Below, in pieces: positions 1 through 47,955 of a stretch of 47,955 nucleotides of DNA; within the stretch, counting starts at the first letter, position 1, and every line of letters begins with the position of its first letter. Below the pieces are notes generated by a model that had not been told where the DNA came from, did not search any database, and was given only the letters and a program-made list of their open reading frames with translations. The position numbers and the translations under genes were made by a program. The DNA comes from a virus: positions 1-47,955 of IMG/VR virus record IMGVR_UViG_3300025711_000259; one strand, 5' to 3'.

Positions 1-1098
1 ATGGGCACGATCACATCACGCAAGCGCAAGGACAACTCGACGGCCTACACGGCGCAGATACGGATCAATCGGGACGGGCGCACAGTTTATCAGGAAAGCC
101 AAACCTTCGACCGAAAGCAGGTCGCCCAGGCTTGGATCAAACGGCGTGAGACTGAGCTGGCTGAACCTGGTGCGATTGAGCGCGCAAATCGTAAGGGTGT
201 GACGATTAGAAAGATGATCGAGCAGTACCTGGACGAGTACGAGAAGATCCGGCCGCTGGGCAAGACCAAGAACGCGACATTGAAGGCGATCAAGGATACC
301 TGGCTGGGCGACCTCGACGACTCGGCCCTGACCAGTCAAAAGCTAGTGGAGTTTGCACAGTGGCGGATGAGTAAAGAGGGCGGCGGTGTTCAGGCGCAGA
401 CGGTCGGTAATGATCTCTCGCACCTGGGCGCGGTGCTGTCCGTGGCGCGACCGGCCTGGGGCTACGAGGTAGATCCGCTGGCCATGCCCGACGCGCGCAA
501 GGTCTTGCGAAAGCTAGGTATGGTGAGCAAGAGCAAGGAGCGCAACCGTCGGCCGACACTGGATGAGTTGGACAGGTTGATGAGGCACTTTTTCGAAATG
601 CAGGTACGTCGACCTGAGTCGATCAACATGCCGAAGATGATTGCGTTTGCTCTCTTCTCGACGCGCCGCCAGGAGGAGATCACGCGGATACGCTGGGATG
701 ATCTCGACGAGTCCCGCCAGGCCGTCCTGGTGCGTGATATGAAGAACCCCGGACAGAAGATCGGCAACGACGTTTGGTGCCATCTGCCCGATGAGGCCTG
801 GGCGATCCTGCAGAGCATGCCAAGGAGAGAGCGGGAGATATTTCCGTACAACTCCAGATCGGTGTCGGCGTCGTTCACGCGGGCGTGTCCGCTGTTGGGT
901 ATTGAGGATCTGCACTTCCATGATCTAAGGCATGAAGGCGTGAGTCGCCTGTTCGAAATGGACTGGGATATTCCCAGGGTTTCGAGTGTTTCCGGGCATA
1001 GGGACTGGAACTCGTTGCGCCGATATACGCATTTAAGAGGACGGGGTGACACGTTCAAAGGATGGCCTTGGCTGAAGGCCTGCGTGAAACCTGATTGA
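1..1098 (+). CDS. int: Phage tyrosine integrase
   Basis: Site-specific tyrosine recombinase, expected to integrate and excise the prophage by cutting and rejoining att sites in the cytoplasm. The 365-aa length suits a phage integrase. The catalytic set is visible: R223 in an R-x-x-E-I context, H307-x-x-R310 in HDLR, H333 in SGH, and nucleophile Y342 in RRYTH. The N-terminal third (about 1-180) carries the arm-binding and SAM-like core-binding parts. The gene starts at the first base of the window, so the upstream promoter and the adjacent att site are not visible. It lies outside the leftward early operon and is followed closely by a small membrane protein gene. Confidence 0.95.
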   Translation: MGTITSRKRKDNSTAYTAQIRINRDGRTVYQESQTFDRKQVAQAWIKRRETELAEPGAIERANRKGVTIRKMIEQYLDEYEKIRPLGKTKNATLKAIKDTWLGDLDDSALTSQKLVEFAQWRMSKEGGGVQAQTVGNDLSHLGAVLSVARPAWGYEVDPLAMPDARKVLRKLGMVSKSKERNRRPTLDELDRLMRHFFEMQVRRPESINMPKMIAFALFSTRRQEEITRIRWDDLDESRQAVLVRDMKNPGQKIGNDVWCHLPDEAWAILQSMPRREREIFPYNSRSVSASFTRACPLLGIEDLHFHDLRHEGVSRLFEMDWDIPRVSSVSGHRDWNSLRRYTHLRGRGDTFKGWPWLKACVKPD

Positions 1099-1622: not shown

Positions 1623-1895
1623 CTATGCCGCTTTCCTGCCCATTAATTGATTCTGTTCGCGAGCTGCCTTCTCTCGCTGTTTGTCAATGTAGTCAGCAAG
1701 ATCTTTGAGATGGATTCCAAGGGCTGCCTTTTGTGTGTCAGCACCTAAGCGAACGACTGGGATGTCTATCTCACCGTCGAGCCTTTTGCGTTTGAATTTC
1801 TCAACGGTCAGGTGCATGTAGTCTGCACAGACGCGATCTAATGGGATGACAGCTTGCCCGTCATACTGAGCCATAAGTAGGAATAAGGTATTCAT
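1623..1895 (-). CDS. prtN: PrtN-family pyocin-type transcriptional activator
   Basis: 90-aa protein of the pyocin activator PrtN family. Visible family features are the N-terminal MNTLFLLMAQYDG segment, the IPLDRVCADY motif, the basic helix around VEKFKRKRL, IPVVRLG, and the C-terminal HLKDLADYID helix. In P. aeruginosa, PrtN is repressed by PrtR and activates pyocin genes after DNA damage; here it is expected to activate prophage genes. ATG 1895 has a GGAGG site and overlaps the upstream stop by 4 bp (ATGA). It is the last gene of the leftward operon, which holds a second, more divergent PrtN-like gene (4006-4323). The DNA target is not identified. Confidence 0.85.
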   Translation of the reverse strand: MNTLFLLMAQYDGQAVIPLDRVCADYMHLTVEKFKRKRLDGEIDIPVVRLGADTQKAALGIHLKDLADYIDKQREKAAREQNQLMGRKAA

Positions 1896-2881
1896 GCTGC
1901 CTCCATTATTTGGTGTGGCGCCCATCCGCTTTCACAGAGCCCGTATGCGCTTGCGCAGTTGTTTTTATCCGTAGCGATCAACAGGTCGTACTGGATGCCG
2001 CCACGAGTGGTCTTCGACCATTCCACCGCCTGGCGAATACTCGCGATTTCCATCACTTCGATAGCCGTCATACCGGATATCGAGCCTTTTGGATGCTTGG
2101 CGTTCGAACCTGCAAAGAATGTCGCGGCGCCCTGCTTGCTGGCCTGTTGCACCAAGCGCTCCCAGCGTTCGATCCTGTCGATCGCCTCGGGGAAACGCAG
2201 CGCAATTTCCCGTAGTTCGTCCTTGCGGCAGTTGATACAGGGCATGCATCCCACCCGGCCCATGCCTTGGGAGTAGAGCGGGTTTGGCTTGATCCCCATG
2301 TACCGGTGCGCCTCGAACACGGCGGGGACGTCCCATTTCAAGATCGGTCGGTAGTTGAATAGGCCTCCACCAACTTCGTCGCACTCCGGCAGATAACGGC
2401 GGTTCAGCGATTCGCCTGCTCTCACGCCTTGCCAACTGAGAATCATGTCGCCCTGTTCCGTCAGGGGAATCACGACCTGCTCCAGCATGGGGTCGCGCTT
2501 CAGTTCCAGCGTGCAGAACTGGGCCCGGACGCTGGGGAAGCGCCCTTTCCAGAGGCACACGTCTAAGAACGGATTGCCGGTGGGTTGCAGAGTATCGAGG
2601 GCAGCCAATACCACCGACTCTTCGATGCCTTGCTCCCGCCACTTAGTCTCGATGAACCGTCGTTTCCCGGCGATCTGACTGGAAAAATCGGCTTTGACCC
2701 TGGTGATCGGTACGCCCGTCGCTTGCTCGAGGTATTCCAGGTACTGGAGTGTCTGTTCGTGTTCATTACCGGTGTCGGCGAAGACGGCCTGGAGGTTTTC
2801 TGTCTCTAGGGCTATTGCTACTAGTAGGGTTGCGGTGGAGTCCTTCCCTCCGCTGACGCTAACTATGTTGCGAGTACTCAT
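1892..2881 (-). CDS. PAPS-reductase-like PP-loop phage protein
   Basis: 329-aa protein of the phosphoadenosine-phosphosulfate reductase / adenine nucleotide alpha-hydrolase superfamily. The PP-loop SGGKDST is at residues 10-16, and a cysteine cluster GCMPCINCRK at 211-220 could bind metal or an Fe-S centre. Such proteins adenylate a substrate with ATP, and phage members are common, but their substrate is generally unknown. True assimilatory CysH enzymes differ in the C-terminal cysteine motif, so sulfate reduction is unlikely. A nucleic-acid modification role, by analogy with DndC or tRNA-thiolation PP-loop enzymes, is only inference. It overlaps both neighbours by ATGA junctions in the leftward operon. 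Confidence 0.8.
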   Translation of the reverse strand: MSTRNIVSVSGGKDSTATLLVAIALETENLQAVFADTGNEHEQTLQYLEYLEQATGVPITRVKADFSSQIAGKRRFIETKWREQGIEESVVLAALDTLQPTGNPFLDVCLWKGRFPSVRAQFCTLELKRDPMLEQVVIPLTEQGDMILSWQGVRAGESLNRRYLPECDEVGGGLFNYRPILKWDVPAVFEAHRYMGIKPNPLYSQGMGRVGCMPCINCRKDELREIALRFPEAIDRIERWERLVQQASKQGAATFFAGSNAKHPKGSISGMTAIEVMEIASIRQAVEWSKTTRGGIQYDLLIATDKNNCASAYGLCESGWAPHQIMEAA

Positions 2882-3531
2882 CGGGCGACTCCCATCTGGC
2901 CCTGCTTGTCCATGGTCAGGTGAGTGCCCCAGGCTTCTGGGTTCACTCGGTAAATGCGATGGGCAGAAACGCCTTGGATGTAACTGGTCGCCACCAATCG
3001 TCCACAGTGGCCACGCACCAACCCCCGCTGCTCCAGCACCACCAGAATCCAGCGGGCATGTTGCAAACCAATCCCAAAGCGGTGCATCAATGCTCTTGGG
3101 CCTGTGAAGGGGCGGGCAGCCACATGGCGGGTCACGGCTTGCACCAGCGAGTCGAATAGCTCGAGTCGGGGAATGTCATAAGTGGGTGAGGCGTGCCCAT
3201 ACCCCACAACAGGCTGCGCGGGCGGGCGATTCTGAGCGGTTAGCGTTGCATTGGGTGTGGCTGCCTCGCGCAGCTTTTCGTGGGGTATGGGCGCCTCGGT
3301 GGTGCTGCTGGTAGAAGCAATAATGCCTGCTGCTGCGCAGCAGAGGCTGTTTGTTTCTAGTGTGTCGACGCGGGATTCCTCTCGGAGTAAAGCGGTCGGG
3401 GATTGGGTGTTGTGCTGGTCCTTTTGCATGCCGCTTTCCTCCGAGGTTCGATTGCGCGTTGGTTCATCAGCCGCTGATGAGGCGTGAGCCGGGTTGCGGT
3501 GTGTGAGGGATTGGGAATAGGCCTGGCTCAT
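2878..3531 (-). CDS. Phage winged-helix-like DNA-binding protein
   Basis: 217-aa protein in two parts. Residues 1-115 are low-complexity, rich in Ser, Thr, Ala and Pro, and look disordered. Residues about 120-217 hold a predicted winged helix around FTGPRALMHRFGIG and VVLEQRGLVRG, resembling FtsK-gamma-type wHTH folds. It probably binds DNA, but the target and role are unknown. AGGAG lies 8 nt before ATG 3531, and the gene shares ATGA overlaps with both neighbours. An inverted repeat of 12-bp arms sits in the DNA for the disordered linker (3195-3292). Confidence 0.65.
   Translation of the reverse strand: MSQAYSQSLTHRNPAHASSAADEPTRNRTSEESGMQKDQHNTQSPTALLREESRVDTLETNSLCCAAAGIIASTSSTTEAPIPHEKLREAATPNATLTAQNRPPAQPVVGYGHASPTYDIPRLELFDSLVQAVTRHVAARPFTGPRALMHRFGIGLQHARWILVVLEQRGLVRGHCGRLVATSYIQGVSAHRIYRVNPEAWGTHLTMDKQGQMGVAR
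3195..3292. repeat. Inverted repeat inside a coding linker
   Basis: GCCCATACCCCA at 3195-3206 and its exact reverse complement TGGGGTATGGGC at 3281-3292. Flanking GAGGCG and GCCTC nearly extend the symmetry. The arms are 74 bp apart, within the low-complexity part of the winged-helix gene. Confidence 0.8.
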
Positions 3532-3947
3532 GCGGCGCTCTCCTGATCTGCCGGCTCCAGCAGTGCCGCGATGGCGAGCGCCTGGTCGCGCAGGACGCGG
3601 GTTTCACGTTCGAGTTTTTTGCCCGTGCGGAAGGCGGCGAAAGTCTCGGCGGCGATCCGGAGCTTGTCTGCGATGTCGATCAGCGTTTGGCGTTCGGGTT
3701 CGCCGAGTGCCAACGCTTCCTGGAGACGTTTGCTGAATTGCGCCAAGTGGGCGTGATCGGCCCTGATGAAGTCGAGCGAGGCCCTTAACTCGCGAATGGT
3801 CTTGGCGCTTTCGGCGCGCAGGACTTCGTCGCTTTCTTTCATGCCGGCGGACATGCCGTCGGTATGGCCCATGAAGTAGCCGGCCCAGACGAGTAGCCCG
3901 GCCAGGGTGATCAGGGCGATGAGTGCGCAGATCTGAATTGCGGTCAT
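3528..3947 (-). CDS. Membrane-anchored coiled-coil phage protein
   Basis: 139-aa protein with one N-terminal transmembrane helix (about residues 4-25) followed by a long charged helical region likely to form a coiled coil. I do not recognise a named family. ATG 3947 is preferred over ATG 3971 because AGGAG lies upstream of it. It ends in an ATGA overlap with the winged-helix gene, so translation is probably coupled. The topology suggests a cytoplasmic coiled coil anchored in the inner membrane, perhaps a regulator of host membrane or lysis events; this is inference only. Confidence 0.65.
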   Translation of the reverse strand: MTAIQICALIALITLAGLLVWAGYFMGHTDGMSAGMKESDEVLRAESAKTIRELRASLDFIRADHAHLAQFSKRLQEALALGEPERQTLIDIADKLRIAAETFAAFRTGKKLERETRVLRDQALAIAALLEPADQESAA

Positions 3948-4005
3948 GTGGTGTGCTCCTGGTGATGTCATTGGCTGGTGGTGGCAGCCGTTCGGTTTTT
4001 GGTCG

Positions 4006-4323
4006 TTACTCGTTGGTGTCGTCCTGTTGTCGCTGCATGTCTTCGTCGGCCTTGTAGGCGCGGATGTCGATCAGGGAGGCGACGTGGCGGATATGGGCGT
4101 ACTTCGGTGCCTTGCGGCTGGTGTCCAGCGTGGTGATGGGGAGCTGGATGCGGCCGCTGCTGATCTCGGCGACGAAGGATTGCTCGTTCAGGTTGCGGAA
4201 GTACTGCTCGCGCACTTTCTCCAGCGGGATCAGAACGTCGCCGAAGATGCGGTAGAGCAATTCGACGGTGGCTGACTCCGGTGCCGGGTGTAGGCGCAGC
4301 GGGTTTTGAGGTGTGTTACTCAT
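4006..4323 (-). CDS. Second PrtN-family activator-like protein
   Basis: 105-aa divergent member of the PrtN family. The family pattern is recognisable: ELLYRIFGD, then IPLEKVREQYF, a helix QSFVAEI, GRIQLPI, a KAP-x(3)-H segment, and a C-terminal hydrophobic helix ending in ID. It is probably a DNA-binding regulator in the same SOS-linked circuit as the PrtN gene at 1623-1895. Its ATG overlaps the stop of the small upstream gene by 8 bp (ATGAGTAA), so it is likely translationally coupled. Two diverged PrtN-type proteins in one operon could act on different promoters or as a pair. Function is inferred from family resemblance only. Confidence 0.7.
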   Translation of the reverse strand: MSNTPQNPLRLHPAPESATVELLYRIFGDVLIPLEKVREQYFRNLNEQSFVAEISSGRIQLPITTLDTSRKAPKYAHIRHVASLIDIRAYKADEDMQRQQDDTNE

Positions 4324-4495
4324 GGCTTTGTTGGGCCTCCTTGTGTTGTTTTCTGGCCGGGTGGTTCCAGGCGTTCAGGCAGTGCCGTTTGGTCAACTCG
4401 CGCAGATGTTCGGGCACTTCGAGGAGCGCGGCGTTGCGCTCCTCTCGTGTCCGCATGGCGATGATCTGGCGGGCGTATTCCCTAGGCCACGTCAC
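4316..4495 (-). CDS. Small phage protein with GTG start (59 aa)
   Basis: A short gene in the gap between the KilAC-like and PrtN-like genes. It starts at GTG 4495, 14 bp inside the end of the upstream gene, and its TAA at 4316-4318 overlaps the next ATG. The product begins VTWPREYARQII, continues with TREERNAALLEVPEHLREL, and ends in a basic helix. The compact helical, charged sequence and interlocked overlaps at both ends argue that it is real. I know of no function for it. Its place in an operon of regulators suggests a small DNA- or protein-binding factor. Confidence 0.7.
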   Translation of the reverse strand: MTWPREYARQIIAMRTREERNAALLEVPEHLRELTKRHCLNAWNHPARKQHKEAQQSHE

Positions 4496-4766
4496 GGTTG
4501 TCTGCCGGGATGGCAGGCAGGTCGATGCCCAACTGTTCGGCCAGCCAGCGGATGCCGGGTTGTTTCACCCGGGTCGACTGGCTGTACTGCATGCCGAGCT
4601 GGTCGTGGTACCACTGGCCGTCCTTGATGCGCAGGTAATCGCGGTCGCGGTTGGGGTAGGCCGGTAGGTTCCCCTCGTTCAGCAGGCCTTTTTCCCGCAT
4701 GCGAGCGATGAGCTTTGGCCGGGTGAGGCCGAGTTGGGTTGCAGCTTGAGCGAGGTTGCGTTCCAT
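4482..4766 (-). CDS. KilAC-type antirepressor domain protein
   Basis: 94-aa protein matching the C-terminal KilAC domain of phage antirepressors: an N-terminal helix LAQAATQLGLTRPKLIARMREKG-like, a YLRIKDGQWYHDQ strand region, and a closing helix GIRWLAEQLGI. In larger antirepressors this domain follows a BRO, Rha or ANT domain; here it stands alone. It may bind DNA or bind the phage repressor to help induction. AAGGGGG precedes ATG 4766. The gene follows the 196-aa gene by 9 bp, and its end overlaps the small GTG-started gene. Confidence 0.7.
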   Translation of the reverse strand: MERNLAQAATQLGLTRPKLIARMREKGLLNEGNLPAYPNRDRDYLRIKDGQWYHDQLGMQYSQSTRVKQPGIRWLAEQLGIDLPAIPADNRDVA

Positions 4767-4775
4767 CGCGCCCCC

Positions 4776-5366
4776 TTATGCCGCGTGCGCGGCTGGGGTG
4801 GCCGCTGCAGCGAGGTGGTTGATGGACTCGGTGACCTTGCCGTAGATCTCGACATCGGTGCCGTACGCGGTGAAGCAGCGGGTGTGCGGGCTTTTGTTGC
4901 CGATGCTCAGGATGGTGGTAACGCCTGAGCGCGATTGGGTGCGATGCAGCGCGACCTGAAGGGGATAGTCGAAGCCCATGTCGAGGCTCAGCACGCCGCC
5001 GGTGCGTACCAGCTCTAACACGCGTTGCTTGTCGGAGACCTCGAAGCGGCCGTATTCGCGGCTGGCATGCGGGCGGTGCATCAGGTCGCAGGTGTTGCTC
5101 GCGTCGAACGGACCGTTGGCAATCTCTTCGATAAAGTCGGCCAGCTTGAGGTGCGTTTTCTTGTCGTTCTGCAGGGTCAGCGTGTGGCGTTCGCTGCCCA
5201 GCTCGACGACGAAGGTACTCTCGGTCGTGCCTCGTTCGACCTTGAGACGGAACGCCAGGCATTCACGCTTGGGGGCTGTCCGGAGAACGTGGTTGAAGGT
5301 TTCGGTCAGGTTGACCTGGGCGTTGAGCAACTGCAGGGTGCGGTTGTCGATTTTGTACTTGATCAT
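4776..5366 (-). CDS. Conserved-type phage early protein, unknown function
   Basis: 196-aa protein without a motif I can name. The composition is that of a soluble mixed alpha/beta protein, with no membrane segment, and its tail is rich in Ala (AAAATPAAHAA). GGAGGG lies 8 nt before ATG 5366, and the start overlaps the stop of the first operon gene (ATGA). As the second gene of the repressor-controlled leftward operon it is likely expressed immediately on induction. Host-takeover or recombination roles are possible but cannot be supported from the sequence. Confidence 0.7.
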   Translation of the reverse strand: MIKYKIDNRTLQLLNAQVNLTETFNHVLRTAPKRECLAFRLKVERGTTESTFVVELGSERHTLTLQNDKKTHLKLADFIEEIANGPFDASNTCDLMHRPHASREYGRFEVSDKQRVLELVRTGGVLSLDMGFDYPLQVALHRTQSRSGVTTILSIGNKSPHTRCFTAYGTDVEIYGKVTESINHLAAAATPAAHAA

Positions 5367-5539
5367 GCTGCATGCCCTCCGCCGTTCGGGTCGAATGGGG
5401 TAGGGGCGGGACGTGCGAGCTGTTTCGGTCTGCTGGTCACAAACGAGCAGCCGCTATCGCGGGCTAAGCGGCGGATTTCGAAGATGCGGAAGGGATTAGC
5501 AGCGGCCGGGTGGACGTGCAGGGTTGCTGTGGTGTGCAT
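5363..5539 (-). CDS. First gene of leftward early operon, small phage protein
   Basis: 58-aa protein starting MHTTATLHVHPAAANPF, rich in Ala, Pro, His and Arg. ATG 5539 is chosen because a GAGG site lies upstream; a longer start at 5575 would run into the operator region. It ends with an ATGA overlap into the 196-aa gene. No family recognised. Being first behind the operator pair at 5578-5615, it marks the promoter end of the operon. Confidence 0.6.
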   Translation of the reverse strand: MHTTATLHVHPAAANPFRIFEIRRLARDSGCSFVTSRPKQLARPAPTPFDPNGGGHAA

Positions 5540-5577
5540 AGTTTTGCCTCGCTCTGTGGTGGAAGAGTGAAACAAAT

Positions 5578-5594
5578 ATCAATCACTGGTTGAT
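5578..5594. promoter_or_regulatory. Repressor operator-like site, leftward operon (1)
   Basis: ATCAAT-CACTG-GTTGAT matches the ATCAAC-N5-GTTGAT pattern seen around the repressor gene with a single mismatch. It sits 39 bp upstream of the first gene of the leftward operon. Its centre is 21 bp from the next site, about two helical turns. Confidence 0.65.
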
Positions 5595-5598
5595 GTAT

Positions 5599-5615
5599 GT
5601 CAACCGTTGGTTGTC
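5599..5615. promoter_or_regulatory. Repressor operator-like site, leftward operon (2)
   Basis: GTCAAC-CGTTG-GTTGTC keeps the TCAAC...GTTG core and the 17-bp dyad spacing of the other operators, with changed outer bases. It is the promoter-distal partner of the site at 5578-5594. Confidence 0.55.
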
Positions 5616-5616
5616 A

Positions 5617-5636
5617 TTTCGGTGATGTCACTGAAA
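5617..5636. promoter_or_regulatory. 20-bp palindrome beside the operator pair
   Basis: TTTCGGTGATGTCACTGAAA is a dyad with 8 of 10 base pairs matching (TTTC-x-GTGA-x2-TCAC-x-GAAA). Its half-site differs from the repressor operators, so it may bind a second regulator. It lies between the leftward operon and the rightward membrane-protein gene. Confidence 0.45.
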
Positions 5637-5701
5637 CATCAGACCAGTGGAGTAAATATGATAAATTGATTCCCAGTCGATCAAATCGAAATGATAAAAC
5701 C

Positions 5702-6598
5702 ATGATAAATATTGTTAGAAAAGTTAATCCGGTTGTCATGTATGTAGGTATAACGTTGTTTTTTTTGGTTTGGTTTATATGGCGTATTTTCTTTAAGTCA
5801 TTGTATGGTGTATTGGTCTTAGCAGTTCTTTGTTATATGTATTCCGAGAGTTTATTTGGAGTTGCTCCTTTGAGCTTTCAACAGTTGGTGATGCTTTTTG
5901 ATTCGCTACAGCCAGAGTTTAAAGTCGGGGTTGTTTCTTCGCTGATTACTGTGATTGGATTTATGTTCGCGTTTCATGTGGCTATAGAAAGTTGGCGCAG
6001 GCAAATGCGGGAGGAATTAAAGCTTAAAGCTGCAAACGAGATGCAGGGCTATTTTGAGCGAGTGGTATATTTTTCGAGTGTGCTTGGTGCCTATGCAGAA
6101 AACGTACGGTTGTTAAAAACGGCGTATGATAACAATTCAGTTCCGCACATGAAATTGCAAATAGAGATTCTTCAAGGGCAATCTATTGCTTTTTTGGAAG
6201 CTCGTAATGAAATGCAAAGGTTCTCATCTGATGTTTATAACTTACTTGCCAGACATGAGAATGTCCTGTCTCAAGCATTTGGATTGAAGAAAACCGCTAG
6301 CTTTGCCGTAAGTCAAATCCATAAAATCGCTCAGTCGATGTGGATCCTCCTGCCAGTGGTCGACACGTCTCATGAAGGGTGGATGGTTAGTTTTCTGGAG
6401 CAAGTCGATTTTGATGGATGCGAACAGTTGGCCTTGGCTACTGCGAAAGTTGATATGCATATTTCTGGCGCTGTGGCGGGGATAAATGGCTACATGTATG
6501 CCCGTATATGGGAGTTGTCCCCTGCGAAGATTTTTGAATGGTTAAGTTCGCCGAAAGGACATATATCGGCTTTGAAGGATTTTCAAAAAGAAGATTGA
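5702..6598 (+). CDS. AT-rich membrane protein in immunity region, likely moron
   Basis: 298-aa protein with two adjacent N-terminal hydrophobic segments (about 11-31 and 33-50), a third at about 79-97, then about 200 soluble residues rich in helix. No family recognised. ATG 5702 is the likeliest start, but no strong Shine-Dalgarno is visible, and ATG 5738 is an alternative. The gene is distinctly AT-rich compared with its neighbours and runs against the repressor, with only 7 bp between their stops. A single AT-rich gene with its own promoter beside a lysogeny repressor is a typical place for lysogenic-conversion or superinfection-exclusion genes; that role is inference. Confidence 0.7.
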   Translation: MINIVRKVNPVVMYVGITLFFLVWFIWRIFFKSLYGVLVLAVLCYMYSESLFGVAPLSFQQLVMLFDSLQPEFKVGVVSSLITVIGFMFAFHVAIESWRRQMREELKLKAANEMQGYFERVVYFSSVLGAYAENVRLLKTAYDNNSVPHMKLQIEILQGQSIAFLEARNEMQRFSSDVYNLLARHENVLSQAFGLKKTASFAVSQIHKIAQSMWILLPVVDTSHEGWMVSFLEQVDFDGCEQLALATAKVDMHISGAVAGINGYMYARIWELSPAKIFEWLSSPKGHISALKDFQKED

Positions 6599-6605
6599 TT
6601 GAGGG

Positions 6606-7337
6606 TCACTCAGGGATGAATGAGCCAACTACCTTACCGCAAATATGAGTCTCTTCTGAGATTTTGATAATTGGGTATTGCGGGTTTATTGGTCTGAGGT
6701 ATTGATTGCCGGCATCCTCAACAAGAATTTTGAAAGTTGCTTCGTTTGTTCGTGGCAATCTTGCTATCACCCTGTCACCAGTTTTTGTCTCAGCTTCGGG
6801 ATCTACAAAGATGATACAGCCGGTAGGGTAACTTCGGCCTGGTCCTGGGTTAGTCATGGAGTCGCCGAGAACTTTCAAAGCGTACCCTTGATCGCTAATA
6901 GGCACGGGGCAGGATAGCCACGAATCAGAATCATAGGATTCGAAATTTGAAACCGCCTCGCACCAAGCTCCCGCCTGTACCCAAGAAATCAAGGGTACCT
7001 TACCGAAACGATGGTTGATTTCGGTGACGTTGCTGCCATCTGCAACTTTCAATCGGTGAACATTGCTCTCCTCATCGCTTTTCTTTGGCAACACACCATA
7101 TTCCAACCATTCGCGACGAACCTTAAGCCAAGAGCAGAGGGCAGTCATGCTGTCAGCTTCTGCCATCGCCTCACCATTGAGCCATTTACTGATTGCCTGG
7201 GTCGTCTTTTCTACGCCTAAACTTTTCAGCTGTCGATGGATGTCTACACCCCGACCCCGGCTACGTACGCCGGCATCGTTGAGGGCTTCATGAAGGCGCT
7301 CGCTAAAGGCTGCGCGGAGAGAATTTTTATCAACCAT
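6606..7337 (-). CDS. prtR: PrtR/CI-type self-cleaving repressor
   Basis: 243-aa lysogeny repressor with an N-terminal helix-turn-helix (about residues 30-60) and a C-terminal LexA/S24 peptidase domain. Visible elements are an Ala122-Gly123 cleavage bond in WVQAGAW, nucleophile S160 in LGDSM, and general base K203 in ATFKIL. This matches repressors that cleave themselves with RecA filaments after DNA damage, as PrtR and lambda CI do. It is divergent from the Cro-like gene, and three operator-like dyads surround its start, one overlapping its ATG, which suggests autoregulation. PrtR is the best analogy because PrtN-type genes are present, but orthology is not established. Confidence 0.9.
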   Translation of the reverse strand: MVDKNSLRAAFSERLHEALNDAGVRSRGRGVDIHRQLKSLGVEKTTQAISKWLNGEAMAEADSMTALCSWLKVRREWLEYGVLPKKSDEESNVHRLKVADGSNVTEINHRFGKVPLISWVQAGAWCEAVSNFESYDSDSWLSCPVPISDQGYALKVLGDSMTNPGPGRSYPTGCIIFVDPEAETKTGDRVIARLPRTNEATFKILVEDAGNQYLRPINPQYPIIKISEETHICGKVVGSFIPE

Positions 7338-7345
7338 GAGTTGAG
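7329..7345. promoter_or_regulatory. Operator-like site over repressor start codon
   Basis: ATCAAC-CATGA-GTTGAG, one mismatch from the dyad consensus. The repressor ATG (on the minus strand at 7335-7337) lies within the spacer, so binding here should block repressor transcription or translation. Confidence 0.6.
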
Positions 7346-7361
7346 AGTCTCATAAAGGTTG

Positions 7362-7378
7362 CGCAATAGTCAGTTGAT
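7362..7378. promoter_or_regulatory. Imperfect middle operator-like site
   Basis: CGCAAT-AGTCA-GTTGAT has one perfect half-site and one half matching at three of six bases. It lies between the two better sites and overlaps a possible rightward -35 TTGCGC (7359-7364) with -10 TATAAC (7380-7385), although the 15-bp gap is short. Confidence 0.4.
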
Positions 7379-7385
7379 CTATAAC

Positions 7386-7402
7386 ATCAACCACGAGTTG
7401 AT
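7386..7402. promoter_or_regulatory. Perfect operator dyad in front of cro
   Basis: ATCAAC-CACGA-GTTGAT is a perfect 6-5-6 dyad and the best copy of the operator family. It ends 4 bp before the GGAGG ribosome site of the Cro-like gene, so binding would occlude the start of the rightward transcript. Confidence 0.7.
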
Positions 7403-7416
7403 AAATGGAGGTTGTC

Positions 7417-7677
7417 ATGCTGGACCCCGCAGATTTTCCGAGCGCAATTGCATTCGCGTTTGAAGCCGTAGGCGGCATCGGGGCCGCCGCGAAGGTATGC
7501 AATAGAAGCTATCAGGCGTTGAACAAATGGCGTCAGGCCGCATGCCTGCCGCGAACGGATTACACAGGTGAAACCAAATACGCCGAGCTGCTGGCGACCG
7601 CTGCAAATCAGAAAGGCAACGCCTTCCAAGCAGCTTGGCTGCTGAACGCTTCGGCCCCTAACAAAGCTGCAGCGTAG
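7417..7677 (+). CDS. Cro-like helix-turn-helix regulator
   Basis: 86-aa protein with a helix-turn-helix near the N-terminus (GGIGAAAKVCNRSYQALNKWR-like, residues about 17-37), of the Cro/YdaS type. It is divergent from the repressor and behind the perfect operator at 7386-7402, the classic Cro position; it should oppose the repressor and favour lytic growth. ATG 7417 is chosen because GGAGG (7407-7411) is well spaced; ATG 7405 would lie upstream of that site. The tail is Ala-rich. Confidence 0.8.
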   Translation: MLDPADFPSAIAFAFEAVGGIGAAAKVCNRSYQALNKWRQAACLPRTDYTGETKYAELLATAANQKGNAFQAAWLLNASAPNKAAA

Positions 7678-8008: not shown

Positions 8009-8527
8009 ATGAGCCGTATCATTCTGAGCTCTCTAGACCGGGCGCAGCGGGAAGTTCTGCCGCTCGATCTCGCGCTTTACCATGCCGCACGGGACTACCC
8101 CGGCGGCGCCGCTGCCATCGCCGCCACTACCGGCCGGAATGCGACCACGCTGCAGCACAAGCTTTCCCCAACCCACCCAAGCCACACGGTGAATATTCAG
8201 GAGTTCGGCGAGATTCTGGAGTTGACCAAGGATCGCCGCATTCTGGATGCGGTGCATGCGCTGGTCGGTGACACGACCTGGCAGGAGCTGGCCGAGGCGT
8301 ACACCAATGACATGCCCGAGACGTTGACCACCGGTATCGCGGAATACTTCCGCAAGGTGGCGGATCTGGCGGACACCTGGGCCAAGAGCATTGGTGACGG
8401 TGTCGTAACTGATGAGGAGCTGGCCGCGATTCGCCTGCAGGTTTTTCGTGGGATTCAGGGGCTGCTGGGGATGTTCAACCGCGCCACGTATGTCAACCAG
8501 ACGACGCGGGGTGTTGATCGTGGCTGA
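8009..8527 (+). CDS. CII-like phage regulatory protein
   Basis: 172-aa protein resembling the phage CII/CP76 regulatory family (P2/186-type). The N-terminal half has a DNA-binding-like helix set (ALYHAARDYPGGAAAIAATTGRN, then LQHKLSPTHPSHTVNIQEFGEI). The C-terminal half is a long helical region. It probably acts in the lysis-lysogeny choice or in activating a phage promoter. ATG 8009 follows AAGGA by 8 nt; the nearer ATG 8004 is followed at once by a stop. It is the first gene of the rightward replication operon after the structured gap. Confidence 0.75.
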   Translation: MSRIILSSLDRAQREVLPLDLALYHAARDYPGGAAAIAATTGRNATTLQHKLSPTHPSHTVNIQEFGEILELTKDRRILDAVHALVGDTTWQELAEAYTNDMPETLTTGIAEYFRKVADLADTWAKSIGDGVVTDEELAAIRLQVFRGIQGLLGMFNRATYVNQTTRGVDRG

Positions 8528-26137: not shown

Positions 26138-27304
26138 ATGAGTTTCTTTCACGGCGTCACGACCACCTCGGTCGATACCGGCGCACGCACTATCTCGCTG
26201 CCGTCCTCGTCGATCATCGGCCTGTGCGATACCTTCAGCCCTGGCTTGGTGGGTGGCGGCACGGCCAAGGCCGGCGAACTCAAGCTGATCACCACCGAAC
26301 GTGAAGCCATTGCAGCGTTCGGCGCCGATTCAGCGATCACTAAGGCCTGCAAGGCGATTTACGCCAAGGCCAAGGCAGTAATCGTCGCCATCGGTGTGCC
26401 GAAGATGGACGACCCGGCGCTGCAGACCTCTGCCATCATCGGGGGTGAGTTGGCGTCCGGTCAGCGTACCGGTCTGCAGGCGCTGCTCGATGGCAAGAGC
26501 CTGTTCAACGCCCAGCCGCGATTGCTGATCGCCCCCGGCCATTCGGCTACGCAAGCGGTGGCCACGGCCATGGATAGCTTGGCGCAGAAGCTACGGGCTA
26601 TCGGGATCATCGACGGACCATGCACCACCGATGAGGCCGCCATGGCCTACGCGAAAAACTTTGGCAGTCGCAACCTGTTCATGGTCGACCCCGGTGTGCA
26701 GTTCTGGGATACCGGTGAAAGCAAGACGGTGGACGCGCCCGGTTCGGCCTGGACTGCCGGCCTGTTTGCCTGGACGGATGCGACCTACGGTTTCTGGGCC
26801 TCGCCGTCGAACAAGGAGTTCACCGGCATCACCGGTACCACCCGTGCGGTCGAGTACCTTGATGGCGATGAGACCTGCCGAGCCAACCTGCTCAACAACG
26901 CGAACATCACCACGATCATTCGTGACGATGGTTTCCGTCTCTGGGGTAACCGCACGCTGTCGAGCGATCCTAAATGGGCGTTCGTCACCCGCGTGCGCAC
27001 GCTGTTCATCCTCATGGATGCAGTTCAGGCCGGCCACAAATGGGCGGTCGACCGCTCGATCACCAAGACCTACGTCAAGGACGTCACCGACGGCCTGGAA
27101 GCGTTCATGCGCGACCTGAAGAACCAAGGCGCGGTGATCAACTTCGAGGTGTTCCCGGATCACGAGTTGAACACGGCCAGCCAGATCGAGCAGGGCAAGG
27201 TGTACTGGCGGATCCGCTTCACCGACGTACCGCCGGCTGAAAACCCGAACTTCCTTTTCGAGGTCACCAACGAGTGGATGACCGAAGTGCTTGAACCTGC
27301 CTAA
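26138..27304 (+). CDS. Contractile tail sheath protein FI
   Basis: 388-aa P2 gpFI-like sheath: MSFFHGVTTTSVDTGARTISLPSSSIIGLCDT, then RLLIAPGHSAT, a SPSNKEFTGITGTTRAVEYL segment, and the C-terminal WRIRFTDVPPAENPNFLFEVTNEWM. Sheath contraction drives the tube into the cell. ATG 26138 is 10 nt from GGAG; ATG 26129 is too close to that site. Confidence 0.95.
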   Translation: MSFFHGVTTTSVDTGARTISLPSSSIIGLCDTFSPGLVGGGTAKAGELKLITTEREAIAAFGADSAITKACKAIYAKAKAVIVAIGVPKMDDPALQTSAIIGGELASGQRTGLQALLDGKSLFNAQPRLLIAPGHSATQAVATAMDSLAQKLRAIGIIDGPCTTDEAAMAYAKNFGSRNLFMVDPGVQFWDTGESKTVDAPGSAWTAGLFAWTDATYGFWASPSNKEFTGITGTTRAVEYLDGDETCRANLLNNANITTIIRDDGFRLWGNRTLSSDPKWAFVTRVRTLFILMDAVQAGHKWAVDRSITKTYVKDVTDGLEAFMRDLKNQGAVINFEVFPDHELNTASQIEQGKVYWRIRFTDVPPAENPNFLFEVTNEWMTEVLEPA

Positions 27305-35306: not shown

Positions 35307-35732
35307 ATGAGCTTTTCAATCCTAGGCCCTATTGCTGTGGCCGGTCGGAAATTACCTCTTTGCCTTTTTCGAGTGCCAGCGGGTTTTCCTTCGCCGGCAG
35401 CGGATCACATCGAAACACACATCTCGCTCGACGAAGTGCTCAACATTCGTGCCCCGCATGTTTACTTGGTGAAAATTGCCGGAGAGAGCATGCAGGGGGC
35501 GGGTATCTTTGACGGCGATTTAGCAGTAGTGGATCGTTCACTGGAGCCGGCGCATGGGCATATTGTCGTTGCGCTGCTCAACAACGAACCGCTTTGCAAG
35601 CGGCTGTGCATCCGTGGAAAAGAGGTCATCCTGCTGTCTGAAAACCCGAAGTACCCGCCGCGTTACGTCATGGAAGGCGATGAGCTGGCGATCTGGGGCG
35701 TGATCATTGGTAGCGTGCGCAGTCATGTCTAG
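35307..35732 (+). CDS. umuD: UmuD-like SOS mutagenesis protein
   Basis: 141-aa self-cleaving protein, close to E. coli UmuD (139 aa). It has a probable cleavage bond A25-G26 before FPSPAADHIE, catalytic S61 in GESMQG, and K98 in PLCKRL. RecA-aided self-cleavage would make UmuD', the partner of UmuC in polymerase V. The bond is Ala-Gly, unlike the Cys-Gly of E. coli. Overlaps umuC by 8 bp. Confidence 0.93.
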   Translation: MSFSILGPIAVAGRKLPLCLFRVPAGFPSPAADHIETHISLDEVLNIRAPHVYLVKIAGESMQGAGIFDGDLAVVDRSLEPAHGHIVVALLNNEPLCKRLCIRGKEVILLSENPKYPPRYVMEGDELAIWGVIIGSVRSHV

Positions 35733-37002
35733 GCAGGTGCCGGTGTTTGGCCTGATCGATTGCAACAGCTTCTACGCTAGCTGCGAGCGGGTGTTCCGTC
35801 CTGACTTGGCAAAGGTCCCAATCGTTGTCTTATCGAATAACGACGGCTGCGTCATCGCTCGCAGCTACGACGCCAAGCCATACGTGAAAATGGGCGAGCC
35901 GTACTTCCAGATCAAGCACAAGCTTAAGCAGCACGGCATCGTCCCGTTCTCCTCGAATTACGCGCTGTACGGTGACATGAGTGAGCGCGTCATGACGCTG
36001 ATTGAGTCCATGGTGCCCGCAGTCGAGGTCTACAGCATCGACGAAGCGTTCGTCGACCTGACCGGCATCAACACTCTAGATAGCCTCGGACGGCAGATCC
36101 GGAACCAGGTACTGAGGTGTGCCGGCATACCAGTGGGCGTGGGGATTGCTCACACCAAAACCCTGGCCAAGCTTGCCAACCATACGGCCAAACGCCTGCA
36201 GGCGCAGACGGGGGGCGTCGTCAATATTTGCGACCCAACTAAGCGTGACTGGGTACTGCGAAATACCGACGTTTCAGAGGTGTGGGGTGTAGGGCGTCGA
36301 ATGAAAGCGCATCTGGATACCATGGGAATCAAGAGTGCGATGGATCTGGCCAAAGCCGACCCTTGGACACTGCGTAAAAACTTCAGTGTGGTGATCGAAA
36401 AGACAGCGCGCGAACTGGCTGGCACTCCCTGTCTGGAGCTAGATGAGCCCGATCCGCCGAAACAGGAGATCTGCTGCAGTCGAATGTTCGGCACCCGCCT
36501 GACGGAACTGGCTCCGATAAAGGAAGCGGTGGCCACGTACATGATGCGCGCCTCAGAAAAGCTCAGGGCGCAGAACTCGCTGTGCAGGAAAGTGCGCGTG
36601 AGCATTCGCACCAGCATGTTCAATCCGGAGGAGGCGAAGTACGCCAATGGTGTGGTGATCGATATGCCTTACCCCACGGATGACGTCCGGCTACTGACCA
36701 AGGCTGCAGTGGATGCGCTGGATCGGGTGTATCGCCCTGGTTTCAAGTACAGCAAGGCCGAGGTATTGCTGATGAACCTGTGTCAGCCAGGTGAATACAC
36801 GGATGATCTGTTTGCGGCTTCTCAACCGACAGAGTCTACCAAGGTCATGGCTGTACTGGATCAGATCAACGAGCGGTGGGGAAGGGGGACGCTGCGAGCG
36901 GCAAGCGTCCCAAGTAACCCAGAATGGGTCATGCGGCGTGAAATGATGAGCCAGAGCTACACGACTCGCTTGGATCAATTGTGGACGGTCAACTGTAGGT
37001 AG
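35725..37002 (+). CDS. umuC: UmuC-like Y-family DNA polymerase
   Basis: 425-aa translesion polymerase subunit. It begins with the palm motif FGLIDCNSFYASCERVF, then VVLSNNDGCVIARSYDAK and YSIDEAFVDLTG with acidic catalytic residues. A helix-hairpin-helix region (VWGVGRRMKAHLDTMGIKSAMDLA) and the DUF4113-type end (RGTLRAASV...W-M-R-REMMSQSYTTRLDQL) follow. Full length. With UmuD' it copies damaged DNA with errors. Whether it belongs to the prophage or is host DNA beside it is unclear. Confidence 0.94.
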   Translation: MSRQVPVFGLIDCNSFYASCERVFRPDLAKVPIVVLSNNDGCVIARSYDAKPYVKMGEPYFQIKHKLKQHGIVPFSSNYALYGDMSERVMTLIESMVPAVEVYSIDEAFVDLTGINTLDSLGRQIRNQVLRCAGIPVGVGIAHTKTLAKLANHTAKRLQAQTGGVVNICDPTKRDWVLRNTDVSEVWGVGRRMKAHLDTMGIKSAMDLAKADPWTLRKNFSVVIEKTARELAGTPCLELDEPDPPKQEICCSRMFGTRLTELAPIKEAVATYMMRASEKLRAQNSLCRKVRVSIRTSMFNPEEAKYANGVVIDMPYPTDDVRLLTKAAVDALDRVYRPGFKYSKAEVLLMNLCQPGEYTDDLFAASQPTESTKVMAVLDQINERWGRGTLRAASVPSNPEWVMRREMMSQSYTTRLDQLWTVNCR

Positions 37003-43078: not shown

Positions 43079-43423
43079 TTAATAATGAGTTTCTATGTTG
43101 TGCCAAATATATTTGTATCTGAGTTTTAGCCATTTTACCAATAGGGAGTTTAGCTGGCTCTTCATCCAGTTATGTTTCTTTGCGTTAAGCATTTCTTCAA
43201 TGTCGCTTTCCAGTTCTTCTCTATTGAAACAAAGCCAGATAGTCGGAAGTGTGCTTTCAAGGTTGGAATGACAAACAGGCGCCACTTCTTCAAACAAAAT
43301 TCGCTTGATTTCGTCTCTATCAAATTCTTCTGTCTGCCGCGCAATCGCAGCGTAGTCGACTTCGTTATCAACGAATGCGTCTGACAATGCCCAGCGAATA
43401 TCCGCTCTTTGTTGCTTTGTCAT
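43079..43423 (-). CDS. Probable immunity protein (DUF7079-like)
   Basis: 114-aa soluble acidic protein. RWALSDAFVDNEVDYAAIA, then RILFEEVAPVCHSNL and WLCFNREELESDIEEML resemble a family of small proteins often next to toxins (DUF7079 type). ATG 43423 overlaps the effector stop (ATGA), so it is coupled; ATG 43435 is also possible. Place and size fit the immunity protein that protects the producer and kin from the effector upstream. Confidence 0.65.
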   Translation of the reverse strand: MTKQQRADIRWALSDAFVDNEVDYAAIARQTEEFDRDEIKRILFEEVAPVCHSNLESTLPTIWLCFNREELESDIEEMLNAKKHNWMKSQLNSLLVKWLKLRYKYIWHNIETHY

Positions 43424-44202
43424 AGCGCGTCCCATTTAGAAAATTCCTCCAACTCTTCATCAAAGGTATCAGCAACAACGCTACCAGCGATGCCTCCTGC
43501 AATACTGCCTGCCAATACGATTGCTACAGCACATGCAATGGCACCAGGCCCGCAAAATGCGGAAACGCCCAAGCCCGCCAACCCACCACCCGCAGCCCCA
43601 CCGCCGATGATGATTCCTTGTCTGGCTGTTTCCTTCATTTTGTTGTCAGCATTCATAATTTCATAAACGGCGAAGGTGGCGGTGACCAATAAACCGACTT
43701 TCCCCATAATTCTTAATTTCTTGGTTCCCCTACTTACCGGTGCATTGTCCCGACCTGCTGAGTCAAGAATCTCATAGTAAACTTTGCTTTTTTGTTCCGG
43801 AGTAAGTTTGCTGTACTCCACTTTTGCGGTTTTTAGTGCGTATTTATCTAGCGTTTCCTGAAGCGTTGGAGGAAGTCTCTTTTTTCTCTCGGCAAAGGCC
43901 ACGCCTTGTGCCGAAGTGTATTTTCGATGCTCCAGCAAAATTCTGTTTCGCATCTCTTGGCAGAACGCTGCTCCTTCTTTAGCACTAAGCCTTCCTGCAG
44001 CAACTTCGGCTTTTGTTTCCACTGACATACGTTTGATGTTGTTCATGTAGTTGGTGCGTACTTTTGCATCCGATATAGCGTCTACAGAAAATCTTGTAGC
44101 AGCACCTTCCATTCCCGCAATAGCCATATCCAAGGGCGAATTTTCGAGCGCGTGTGCTTTCTGGACAACGTAGCTTCCCGTGACGAGCAATGGTTCAGTC
44201 AT
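43420..44202 (-). CDS. Glycine-zipper membrane-active effector, T6SS type
   Basis: 260-aa protein. Residues 1-160 are helical and charged. Then come a hydrophobic helix (about 166-183) and a long Gly/Ala-rich hydrophobic region (about 197-245, GIIIGGGAAGGGLAGLG and AIVLAGSIAGGIAGSVVAD), a double glycine zipper as in pore-forming toxins. It follows the PAAR gene by 10 bp and overlaps the immunity gene. Probably loaded on the PAAR tip by a type VI secretion system and inserts into target membranes. No enzyme motif is seen. Low GC suggests transfer. Confidence 0.65.
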   Translation of the reverse strand: MTEPLLVTGSYVVQKAHALENSPLDMAIAGMEGAATRFSVDAISDAKVRTNYMNNIKRMSVETKAEVAAGRLSAKEGAAFCQEMRNRILLEHRKYTSAQGVAFAERKKRLPPTLQETLDKYALKTAKVEYSKLTPEQKSKVYYEILDSAGRDNAPVSRGTKKLRIMGKVGLLVTATFAVYEIMNADNKMKETARQGIIIGGGAAGGGLAGLGVSAFCGPGAIACAVAIVLAGSIAGGIAGSVVADTFDEELEEFSKWDAL

Positions 44203-44212
44203 GAAAAAATCC

Positions 44213-44758
44213 TTATTTCAAAGAAGCGTTGAATAATGTATCGAAGATCGAACCAGCGGCCGATTCCTCTTGTGTACCGAATTCAAGCTTGTGACAAATT
44301 TTCCCGGGGATATTGAGAAATTTCACAGTGTTGGCGTTATCAAAAACGCCTGATAGGGTAGTTCCGTCGTCAAAGTGTGCGGTGCAACTCATGCCCTGAT
44401 ATGACTCCTCCCCTGGGATATTGAAGCTGATCCAACCAGGGTGAACGATGATAGGGGTAGGGGCTGTAAAGGGAGCTGGTGTATGGGAGTCACCGATGAT
44501 CACTGTTCCCGATCCACCAATCACAACGTCTCCATGCGTACCAGTGGTGCCGACAAGCGCGGCATTTTTGCCATTGATGAACACTGTCCCTGAAACCGCT
44601 GAAGCTAATGCGCTGCCACAAGTGCAAGCGTCGCCTTTTCGAGCAGCCGCAAGTCCGTCGAAGAATACGTCGGGGGAACCGGAGGCGATGGCTTTGGGGC
44701 CGTGCCCAGGCATTGGGCAACTGGTGGGATCGCTGATGCGTGCGGCTGGCTTTGCCAT
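44213..44758 (-). CDS. PAAR-domain T6SS tip protein
   Basis: 181-aa protein. Residues 1-95 are a PAAR domain: MAKPAARISDPTSCPMPGHG, IASGSPDVFFDGLAAARKGDACTCG, and GTVFINGKNAALVGTTGTHGDVVIGGSGTVIIG. It sharpens the VgrG spike and carries effectors. A C-terminal beta extension (100-181) may hold the next gene's product. AGGGAG lies 6 nt before ATG 44758. First gene of a three-gene leftward unit; no other T6SS gene is in the window, so this is an orphan island. Confidence 0.9.
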   Translation of the reverse strand: MAKPAARISDPTSCPMPGHGPKAIASGSPDVFFDGLAAARKGDACTCGSALASAVSGTVFINGKNAALVGTTGTHGDVVIGGSGTVIIGDSHTPAPFTAPTPIIVHPGWISFNIPGEESYQGMSCTAHFDDGTTLSGVFDNANTVKFLNIPGKICHKLEFGTQEESAAGSIFDTLFNASLK

Positions 44759-44839
44759 GTTTGACTCCCTGTCAACGAATGAACCGGTGCCGACTTTATC
44801 AGACTCGGCTGGGCCCGTGTCTTGGTACAGCGCCTTCAA

Positions 44840-46020: not shown

Positions 46021-47955
46021 ATGGCAGAAGCATCGAATTTCCTGGGCAACATCAAGGTTTCCCGAAAGTTGGGGGCCGGGTTTGGCGTTCTTTTGCTGGC
46101 GGTGGGGGCGGTGGCCTTCATTGGCTATAACAGCAGCAATGTGCTGGTTGATCGCCTGGGTACCACGCGTTTGATCGGTACGCTCAACGATGCGACGCAG
46201 GACATGCGGCTGTCGGAGAAGCAGTACGAAGCGGCGGCGGATGTCGCTTATGCCGAGGCCTATCAGTCGCAGCTGACGGTGTTGCAGGGGCTGATCGCCA
46301 AGGCGTTGCAGACCCTGACGCGGGCGGAAAACCAGCAGGCCTTGAAGCGTTTGCAGGACACCACGCTGGCTTACGATCAGCAGGTCAAGCGTTTGGTCGA
46401 GGCGGACAAGGCGACCAGTGATGCGCTGAAACCGTTGGGGGCGATGTCGGACAAGTACGCCGAGACCTTCAACAGCATGTTCGAGAGCACCACGGCCAGT
46501 GCGCTGGCGTCTGCTGATAGCGCACGTGTGACGGATTTGCGCACCGTGGCGGATCTGCGCAATGGCATGACGATGTTTCGTCTGATGTTGCGGCGTTATA
46601 TCGCGGTGCCGAGCGAGGCCAACAAGCAGGTGCTGCTGGACACCACTGATGCGTTTCTGGCCGACATGAGCAAGGCGCGCAGCGGTTTGCCGGCGGCCTT
46701 GTCGAGTCAGCTTGAAGAGGCGCAGGCCGGCATGCGCCGTTATCGCGAGGTGCTGGTCGAGGTCGCCGCGCTGTTCGAGCAGAAGCAGAGCCTGCGCCAG
46801 CAGGTCGATCAGCAGAGCCAGGCGATGGACAGCATCATGACCGGCCTGATGGACACGCAGCAGCGTCTGGCGCGGGACGATCAACAGCGTGCGTTTATCC
46901 AGATTGCCGTGCTGACGGTGCTGGCGCTGGTGGTCGGTCTGTTGGCTGCGGTGCTGATTTCGCGGCAGATCACCGGGCCGCTGGCGCTGACGGTGGAGCT
47001 GGCGCGACGGATTGCCAAGGGCGACCTGACGGTGCAAGCCAAATCCAGCCGCAAGGATGAATTGGGCGATCTGCAAAACGCGATGCAGGACATGGCGCAA
47101 AGTCTGAACACGCTGGTGCAGGGGATCGGTAACGGCGTGACACATATTTCGACATCGGCGGAGAAACTCTCGGCGATGAGCGAGCAGACCAGCGCCGGTG
47201 TGCGCCAGCAGAAAGTCGAGGTGGATCAGGTCGCCACGGCGATGCACGAAATGGCCTCGACCGTGCAGGAGGTGGCGCGCAACACCACCGACGCATCCGC
47301 CGCCGCGACACTGGCCGATCAGCAAGCACGACACGGCAGTGCGGTGGTCAAGCAGGCGACTGTGCAGATCAGCGAACTGTCGGTGGCGATCGAAGAGTTG
47401 GGCGCGGCGATGAACGTGCTGTCCCAGGACAGTGAGCAGATTGGCAAGGTCATCGATGTGATCAAGGCAGTCGCTGAGCAGACCAATTTGCTGGCGCTGA
47501 ACGCGGCGATTGAAGCGGCGCGGGCGGGGGAGCAGGGCCGTGGTTTTGCCGTGGTTGCCGATGAAGTGCGCTCGCTGGCGCAGCGCACCCAGGATTCGAC
47601 CAAGGAAATCGAAGCGCTGATTGTCACCTTGCAGCAGGGCACGCAAGCGGCATCTACGCTGATGACATCCAGCCGCGAGCGCACGCTGGACACCGTGGTG
47701 CTGGCGCAGAAGGCCGAGCAGGCGATTACCGAGATCAACCATTCGATCGGCACGATCCAGCAAATGAGCCTGCAGATTTCCGCCGCCGCCGAGCAGCAAA
47801 GTGCAGTGGCCGATGAGATCAATCGCAGCATCGTCAGTGTGCGCGATGTGGCCGATCAGTCGGCCGTCGCCAGCGAAGAAAGTGCTGCTGCGACCATTGA
47901 GCTGGCGTCGCTGGGGCAGGACCTGCAACGCATGACGGCGCATTTCCGCACCTGA
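46021..47955 (+). CDS. Methyl-accepting chemotaxis protein
   Basis: 644-aa inner-membrane chemoreceptor. TM1 is at about 17-37, then a periplasmic all-helical sensor of about 255 residues resembling the helical bimodular (HBM) type, TM2 at about 293-314, HAMP at about 315-368, and a signalling domain to the end with the conserved hairpin tip [20 protein letters not shown], then [18 protein letters not shown]. No CheR-binding pentapeptide at the end (AHFRT). The ligand is unknown; HBM receptors often sense organic acids. It is complete, the stop being the last bases of the window. Confidence 0.93.

Follow-up and report, generated by a model that had tools for sequence, protein, structure and literature searches.

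The window analysed here, the whole of a 47,955-bp virus record (IMG/VR IMGVR_UViG_3300025711_000259), carries a Pseudomonas prophage and opens with an integrase gene, followed by an operon of leftward genes, an accessory gene, a repressor gene and a divergent rightward operon headed by a cro-like gene (Table 1). The repressor gene product displays the features of a CI-like repressor, with a helix-turn-helix (HTH) domain, an S24 peptidase domain and the expected cleavage and catalytic residues, an assignment made from the presence of these domains and residues. The closest solved relative of its C-domain is that of λ CI (E 1e-25), and alignment of 16 homologues down to 59 % identity revealed Ala122-Gly123, Ser160 and Lys203 to be invariant. 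The AlphaFold model, which is poor in the C domain and was used for the N domain alone, has five helices at a pLDDT of ~90 and matches the DNA-binding domains of TP901-1 CI and P22 C2. Induction by DNA damage is established for this family of S24 repressors. On the rightward side, the downstream CII-like regulator is clear, and the divergent Cro-like protein was assigned from its position and a weak phrog_35 match.

Within the leftward operon, a promoter-pattern scan found no internal promoters, and one weak leftward terminator-like match is present. Its first genes, where λ has the antiterminator gene N, returned matches only to phrogs of unknown function, while two further genes encode proteins of the PrtN family, PrtN1 and PrtN2. 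A PAPS-reductase-like gene (1892–2881) lies within the operon just before PrtN2, and few relatives carry one. Elsewhere, the reading of the sequence indicated a UmuC-like polymerase gene (35707–37002) and, near the right end, a gene for a PAAR-like protein (44213–44839) followed by a possible partner gene (43420–44202). By the same reading, a gene for a methyl-accepting chemotaxis protein (46021–47955) runs to the last base; it is probably host flank, and the prophage would therefore end before the window does.

Table 1. Features of the predicted immunity region and associated genes (positions are those of the window)
Feature	Position	Strand	Remarks
Tyrosine integrase, dusA-specific kind	1..1098	+	Close relatives adjoin dusA
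Leftward P_L operon	1623..5539	-	Nine genes packed closely, with gaps of no more than 34 bp
PrtN2	1623..1925	-	Last gene of the P_L operon; PF11112, 91 bits
PrtN1	4006..4323	-	Fifth gene of the P_L operon; PF11112, 99 bits
P_L promoter	5575..5603	-	TTGACA-17-GATATT; -35 at 5603-5598, -10 at 5580-5575
OL1, predicted operator	5578..5594		ATCAATCACTGGTTGAT; fills the P_L spacer and touches the -10; conserved upstream of the leftward operon in relatives
Accessory gene, 333 aa product	5597..6598	+	Lies in the repressor–OL interval and converges on the repressor gene; cargo-hotspot position
OL2, predicted operator	5599..5615		GTCAACCGTTGGTTGTC; overlaps the P_L -35; partner at 21 or 24 bp in most relatives
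CI-like repressor, 243 aa	6606..7337	-	N-terminal five-helix HTH; C-terminal S24 peptidase (Pfam PF00717)
OR3, predicted operator	7329..7345		ATCAACCATGAGTTGAG; covers the repressor start codon; conserved
Doubtful middle site (OR2?)	7362..7378		One good half, AGTTGAT; inside the conserved P_R/P_RM promoter block
OR1, predicted operator	7386..7402		Perfect dyad ATCAACCACGAGTTGAT between repressor and cro-like gene; position shared by nearly all class-0 relatives
Cro-like protein	7417..7677	+	Heads the rightward operon; GGAGG precedes its ATG; matches phrog_35 (transcriptional repressor) at E 1e-5
CII-like regulator	8009..8527	+	PF06892, E 5e-21; phrog_101

A pattern scan for ATCAAC-N5-GTTGAT returned no mismatches at 7386, one each at 5578 and 7329 and three each at 5599 and 7362. 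An earlier note on this DNA had located five shared operators at these positions, and its coordinates, the perfect dyad at 7386 and the 21-bp spacing of the two sites before the leftward operon were all correct. At up to three mismatches, however, the pattern is not selective (46 matches in the whole window vs 15 expected); hence, a count of mismatches says little about sites 5599 and 7362. A weight matrix was derived from relatives alone (163 distinct sites, the window phage left out) and used to score the window. The first four ranks over the whole window went to 7386 (24.1 bits), 5578 (23.9), 7329 (21.1) and 5599 (18.1), with a clear step down to the fifth-best score of 13.0 bits; across 60 simulated windows, chance matches at the four scores numbered 0, 0, 0 and 0.03 per window, respectively. 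Matrix matches at 13.0 bits and below fall within genes, and the weaker matches at 27137, 39374, 41323 and 37542 were discarded as in-gene chance matches.

The site at 7362 scored 8.0 bits, a level at which about three matches per window are expected by chance. Its GTTGA half is kept even where the repressor is 60 % identical, while the other half drifts, suggesting a conserved half-site at best. The whole-window dyad scan proposed in the earlier note thus upheld four of its five operators, and 7362 remained at chance level. Could the dyads simply be chance products of an AT-rich intergenic stretch? The abundance of matches at three mismatches and the quality of 7362 are what such an origin would produce, and for 7362 this explanation stands; for the other four sites, it is refuted by their ranks in 48 kb, by the near-zero expectation at their scores and by their conservation in ~100 relatives, and as an account of the dyads in general we regard it as extremely improbable. 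The operators predicted at 7386, 5578, 7329 and 5599 are solid.

The repressor searches yielded 80 viral-contig loci and 35 bacterial-genome loci, 30 of the latter being close relatives with a 70–90 % identical repressor and Pseudomonas in every title; GenBank phage records provided a single near relative, the 7.5-kb fragment MT837188. Nearly all close relatives carry one site at -65 (or -64) and another at -8 from the repressor ATG, together with one or two sites immediately before the first leftward-operon gene. The sites are kept even though the repressor start and the leftward operon are anywhere from 0.8 to 4.4 kb apart among relatives. Likewise, in 103 distinct loci of class 0, one of five repressor classes described below, the OR motif also occurs before the leftward operon, across 0–3.7 kb of unrelated DNA, although relatives share ancestry and such counts are not phylogenetically independent. 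The OL pair is spaced by 21 bp in 43 loci, 24 bp in 31 and 25 bp in 2, and OL2 is not essential, since 18–24 of the 103 class-0 relatives are without a clear one. The 21- and 24-bp registers of OL2 relative to OL1 apparently differ by a TTG insertion (GTTGAC vs GTTGTTGAC).

The operators on the leftward side are interwoven with a promoter. P_L is the top promoter-like match in 5500–7500 (10/12), and TTGAC is found at its position in 100 of the 103 class-0 relatives, usually with GATATT 17 bp on. In the 21-bp form, the right half of OL2, GTTGAC, itself belongs to the P_L -35; in the 24-bp form, GTTGTTGAC is the combined OL2/-35 sequence. While the overlap of operator and promoter is evident at P_L, the position of P_R is less certain: between 7329 and 7386 runs a block of strong conservation that includes the middle half-site and in which the P_R and P_RM hexamers are hard to place exactly. 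From the position of OR3 over the repressor ATG, autoregulation of the repressor would be expected.

Whether one repressor reads both clusters was addressed by comparing repressor classes, using loci fetched with two leftward-operon genes. These loci have cII, primase, PrtN1 and the remaining P_L genes in common, yet their repressors fall into five classes, the N-terminal parts of which fail to cluster at 50 % identity; the DNA-binding domains of the five are unrelated or barely related, and the flanking genes are the same. A separate dyad characterizes each class and recurs at OL as well as OR; the five, found without prior assumption, are ATCAACC-N3-GGTTGAT, TTAACCT-N3-AGGTTAA, AATCACG-N3-CGTGATT, CCAAACA-N3-TGTTTGG and GATTAGCAATTGCTAATC. 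The best 17-mer match of OL to own-class OR was 13.9–15.8, against 11.9–12.7 to the OR of other classes, and the own OR was the best in every row and column of the comparison. In the class matrices from dyad discovery, the training regions are also the scored regions, which training on OR only removes for OL. Matrices trained in this manner (on few sites for classes 2 and 4, namely 6 and 3) found OL in 100 % of own-class loci and in 0–19 % of loci of other classes, indicating that the operators at both ends travel with the repressor. In loci L118–L269, the stretch from cII to the first leftward gene exists in at least five versions, immunity cassettes that can replace one another and whose OL and OR dyads match. 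We also considered the short contigs of classes 2–4 as tailocins and rejected this, as they have a primase/helicase gene and, where visible, integrases.

This co-swapping is the strongest evidence that a single repressor would read both OL and OR, and it bears directly on the alternative that the repressor acts at OR only and that the OL dyads are promoter parts or the target of another regulator, such as the Cro-like protein. Some of the conservation of OL1 and OL2 is indeed that of a promoter, as both share sequence with the P_L core; however, OL switches to match OR with each repressor class while the leftward operon stays unchanged. Sharing of operators with Cro is, moreover, compatible with repressor binding, and the Cro-like genes swap with the same cassette. 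We therefore consider an OR-only repressor very unlikely. The proposal of the earlier note that one repressor would hold both the replication and the leftward operons is well supported by conservation and operator-class co-swapping, and the comparison strongly supports a predicted λ-type OL/OR immunity region.

The genes that P_L would deliver include PrtN1 and PrtN2, both of which match a PHROG annotated as excisionase. PrtN1 occurs in 167/167 relatives, with every integrase type, while PrtN2 is present in 41/41 loci with a window-type integrase and 0/51 with other integrases, although these loci are kin and the P value of this split therefore overstates its significance. A divergent dusA is found 75 nt away from integrases 96 and 92 % identical to that of the window, and more distant integrases are placed likewise. 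The dusA element IMEVchUSA3 needs RdfN, which is a PF11112 protein, for its excision (PMC8409611), and a prtN homologue is found in 60 of 94 dusA islands (PMC4482086). PrtN2 is likewise a small PF11112 protein carried with a dusA-specific integrase. On account of this tie and its match to RdfN, PrtN2 is most likely an excision factor of the RdfN type, not a late-gene activator, and the reading of both proteins as activators in the earlier note probably does not hold for PrtN2.

The same genes invite another reading, in which the repressor mainly controls PrtN-family activators that switch on late genes via P-boxes, as in the PrtR-PrtN circuit of pyocins. Both PrtN genes are above the PF11112 cut-off and lie in the operon behind the predicted OL operators, and the presence of PrtN1 whatever the integrase points to a role beyond excision by the window-type integrase. 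However, they come fifth and ninth in their operon and are not divergent from the repressor, the presence of PrtN2 tracks integrase type perfectly and the PHROG annotation is that of an excisionase. Using the P-box pattern reportedly given by Matsui in 1993, we found neither a double full unit nor ATTG units at 9–12 spacing in runs of three or more anywhere in the window, and so no P-box repeats before the late genes. A pyocin-type circuit thus seems possible but unlikely. The earlier contrast between a λ-like arrangement and the simple PrtR-PrtN pair is borne out in layout, given the P_L operon, and less so in kind, as prtN-family genes would still be under repressor control.

Taken together, we consider it highly probable that this is a λ-type immunity region in which the repressor holds P_R and P_L, damage opens both and PrtN2 switches the dusA integrase to excision. 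In the lysogen, we infer that the CI-like repressor would sit on OR1 and OR3, perhaps with the half-site between, shutting the rightward promoter of the cro-like, cII and replication genes and tuning its own gene, while its binding to OL1 and OL2 would occlude P_L (spacer, -10 and -35) and silence the nine-gene leftward operon. DNA damage would lead to RecA-stimulated self-cleavage of the repressor at Ala122-Gly123, opening both promoters, and the P_L operon would then deliver PrtN1 and PrtN2, the latter making the dusA integrase excise rather than integrate.

The interval between the repressor and OL carries variable cargo. In the window, it holds the accessory gene, whose true start is probably at 5692 or 5704 and whose 333 aa product matched nothing in Pfam or PADLOC. 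In classes 0 and 1, the interval (cf. window 5616–6598; L003–L112) contains 67 protein families in ~120 loci, with 59 of the 67 family representatives convergent with the repressor. Many families match models of defence proteins, among them Septu PtuA, GajA, AriA, SIR2, AbiC, KAP NTPase, reverse transcriptase and Cap15. In classes 2–4, the repressor directly adjoins OL. In lambdoid phages, the stretch between cI and N is also known as a hotspot (Degnan 2007, as cited in PMC8585504), to which this cargo and defence hotspot is a parallel. A more speculative idea, which we consider improbable, is that OL is double-sided, such that the operators silencing P_L also gate the adjoining divergent cargo gene, wiring rotating defence genes to the prophage repressor.

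The region shares with λ and the lambdoid phages P22, 21 and HK629 a CI-like S24 repressor with a divergent cro-like gene and a CII-like gene, ~17-bp dyads at two places flanking the repressor and overlapping early promoters, a leftward operon with a predicted excision function, cargo between repressor and OL and immunity cassettes swapped as units. Unlike in λ, the dyad is ATCAACC-N3-GGTTGAT, OL has one or two sites and OR two strong ones (plus the half-site) instead of three each, the predicted excision factor is PrtN-type and the integrase gene has the opposite direction. Three operators per cluster are a trait of λ itself and not of the wider kind, so their absence lowers only the close identity with λ. 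The accessory gene is convergent with the repressor, whereas rexAB and bstA of lambdoids lie behind it.

Prophage 03 of Pseudomonas protegens Pf-5 is similar by description, with dusA integration, a LexA-like repressor and two prtN-like genes, and mitomycin C promotes excision of the Pf-5 dusA prophage (PMC4482086); operators are not described in those parts of the published account that we drew on (PMC2647930, PMC4482086). The PrtR-PrtN pair of P. aeruginosa pyocins likewise places an S24-type repressor over a prtN-family gene, but the window differs in its two-sided operators, its prtN genes deep in an operon and the absence of P-box runs from our search. RdfN of IMEVchUSA3 resembles PrtN2 as a PF11112 protein tied to a dusA integrase; its gene, however, is driven by the plasmid activator AcaCD (PMC8409611), whereas PrtN2 lies in a P_L operon predicted to be repressor-controlled.

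The layout itself is already familiar; the additions made here are the swapping of operators with repressor across five classes and a prediction, namely that rdfN of dusA prophages is driven from P_L. The cassettes, at least five and interchangeable, offer a comparative set for the co-evolution of repressor and operator specificity outside enterobacteria. The authors of the RdfN study asked what drives rdfN in prophage-like dusA elements (PMC8409611); a predicted self-cleaving repressor over P_L, with the rdfN-like PrtN2 gene as the last of the operon, suggests a testable answer, namely that DNA damage would drive rdfN.
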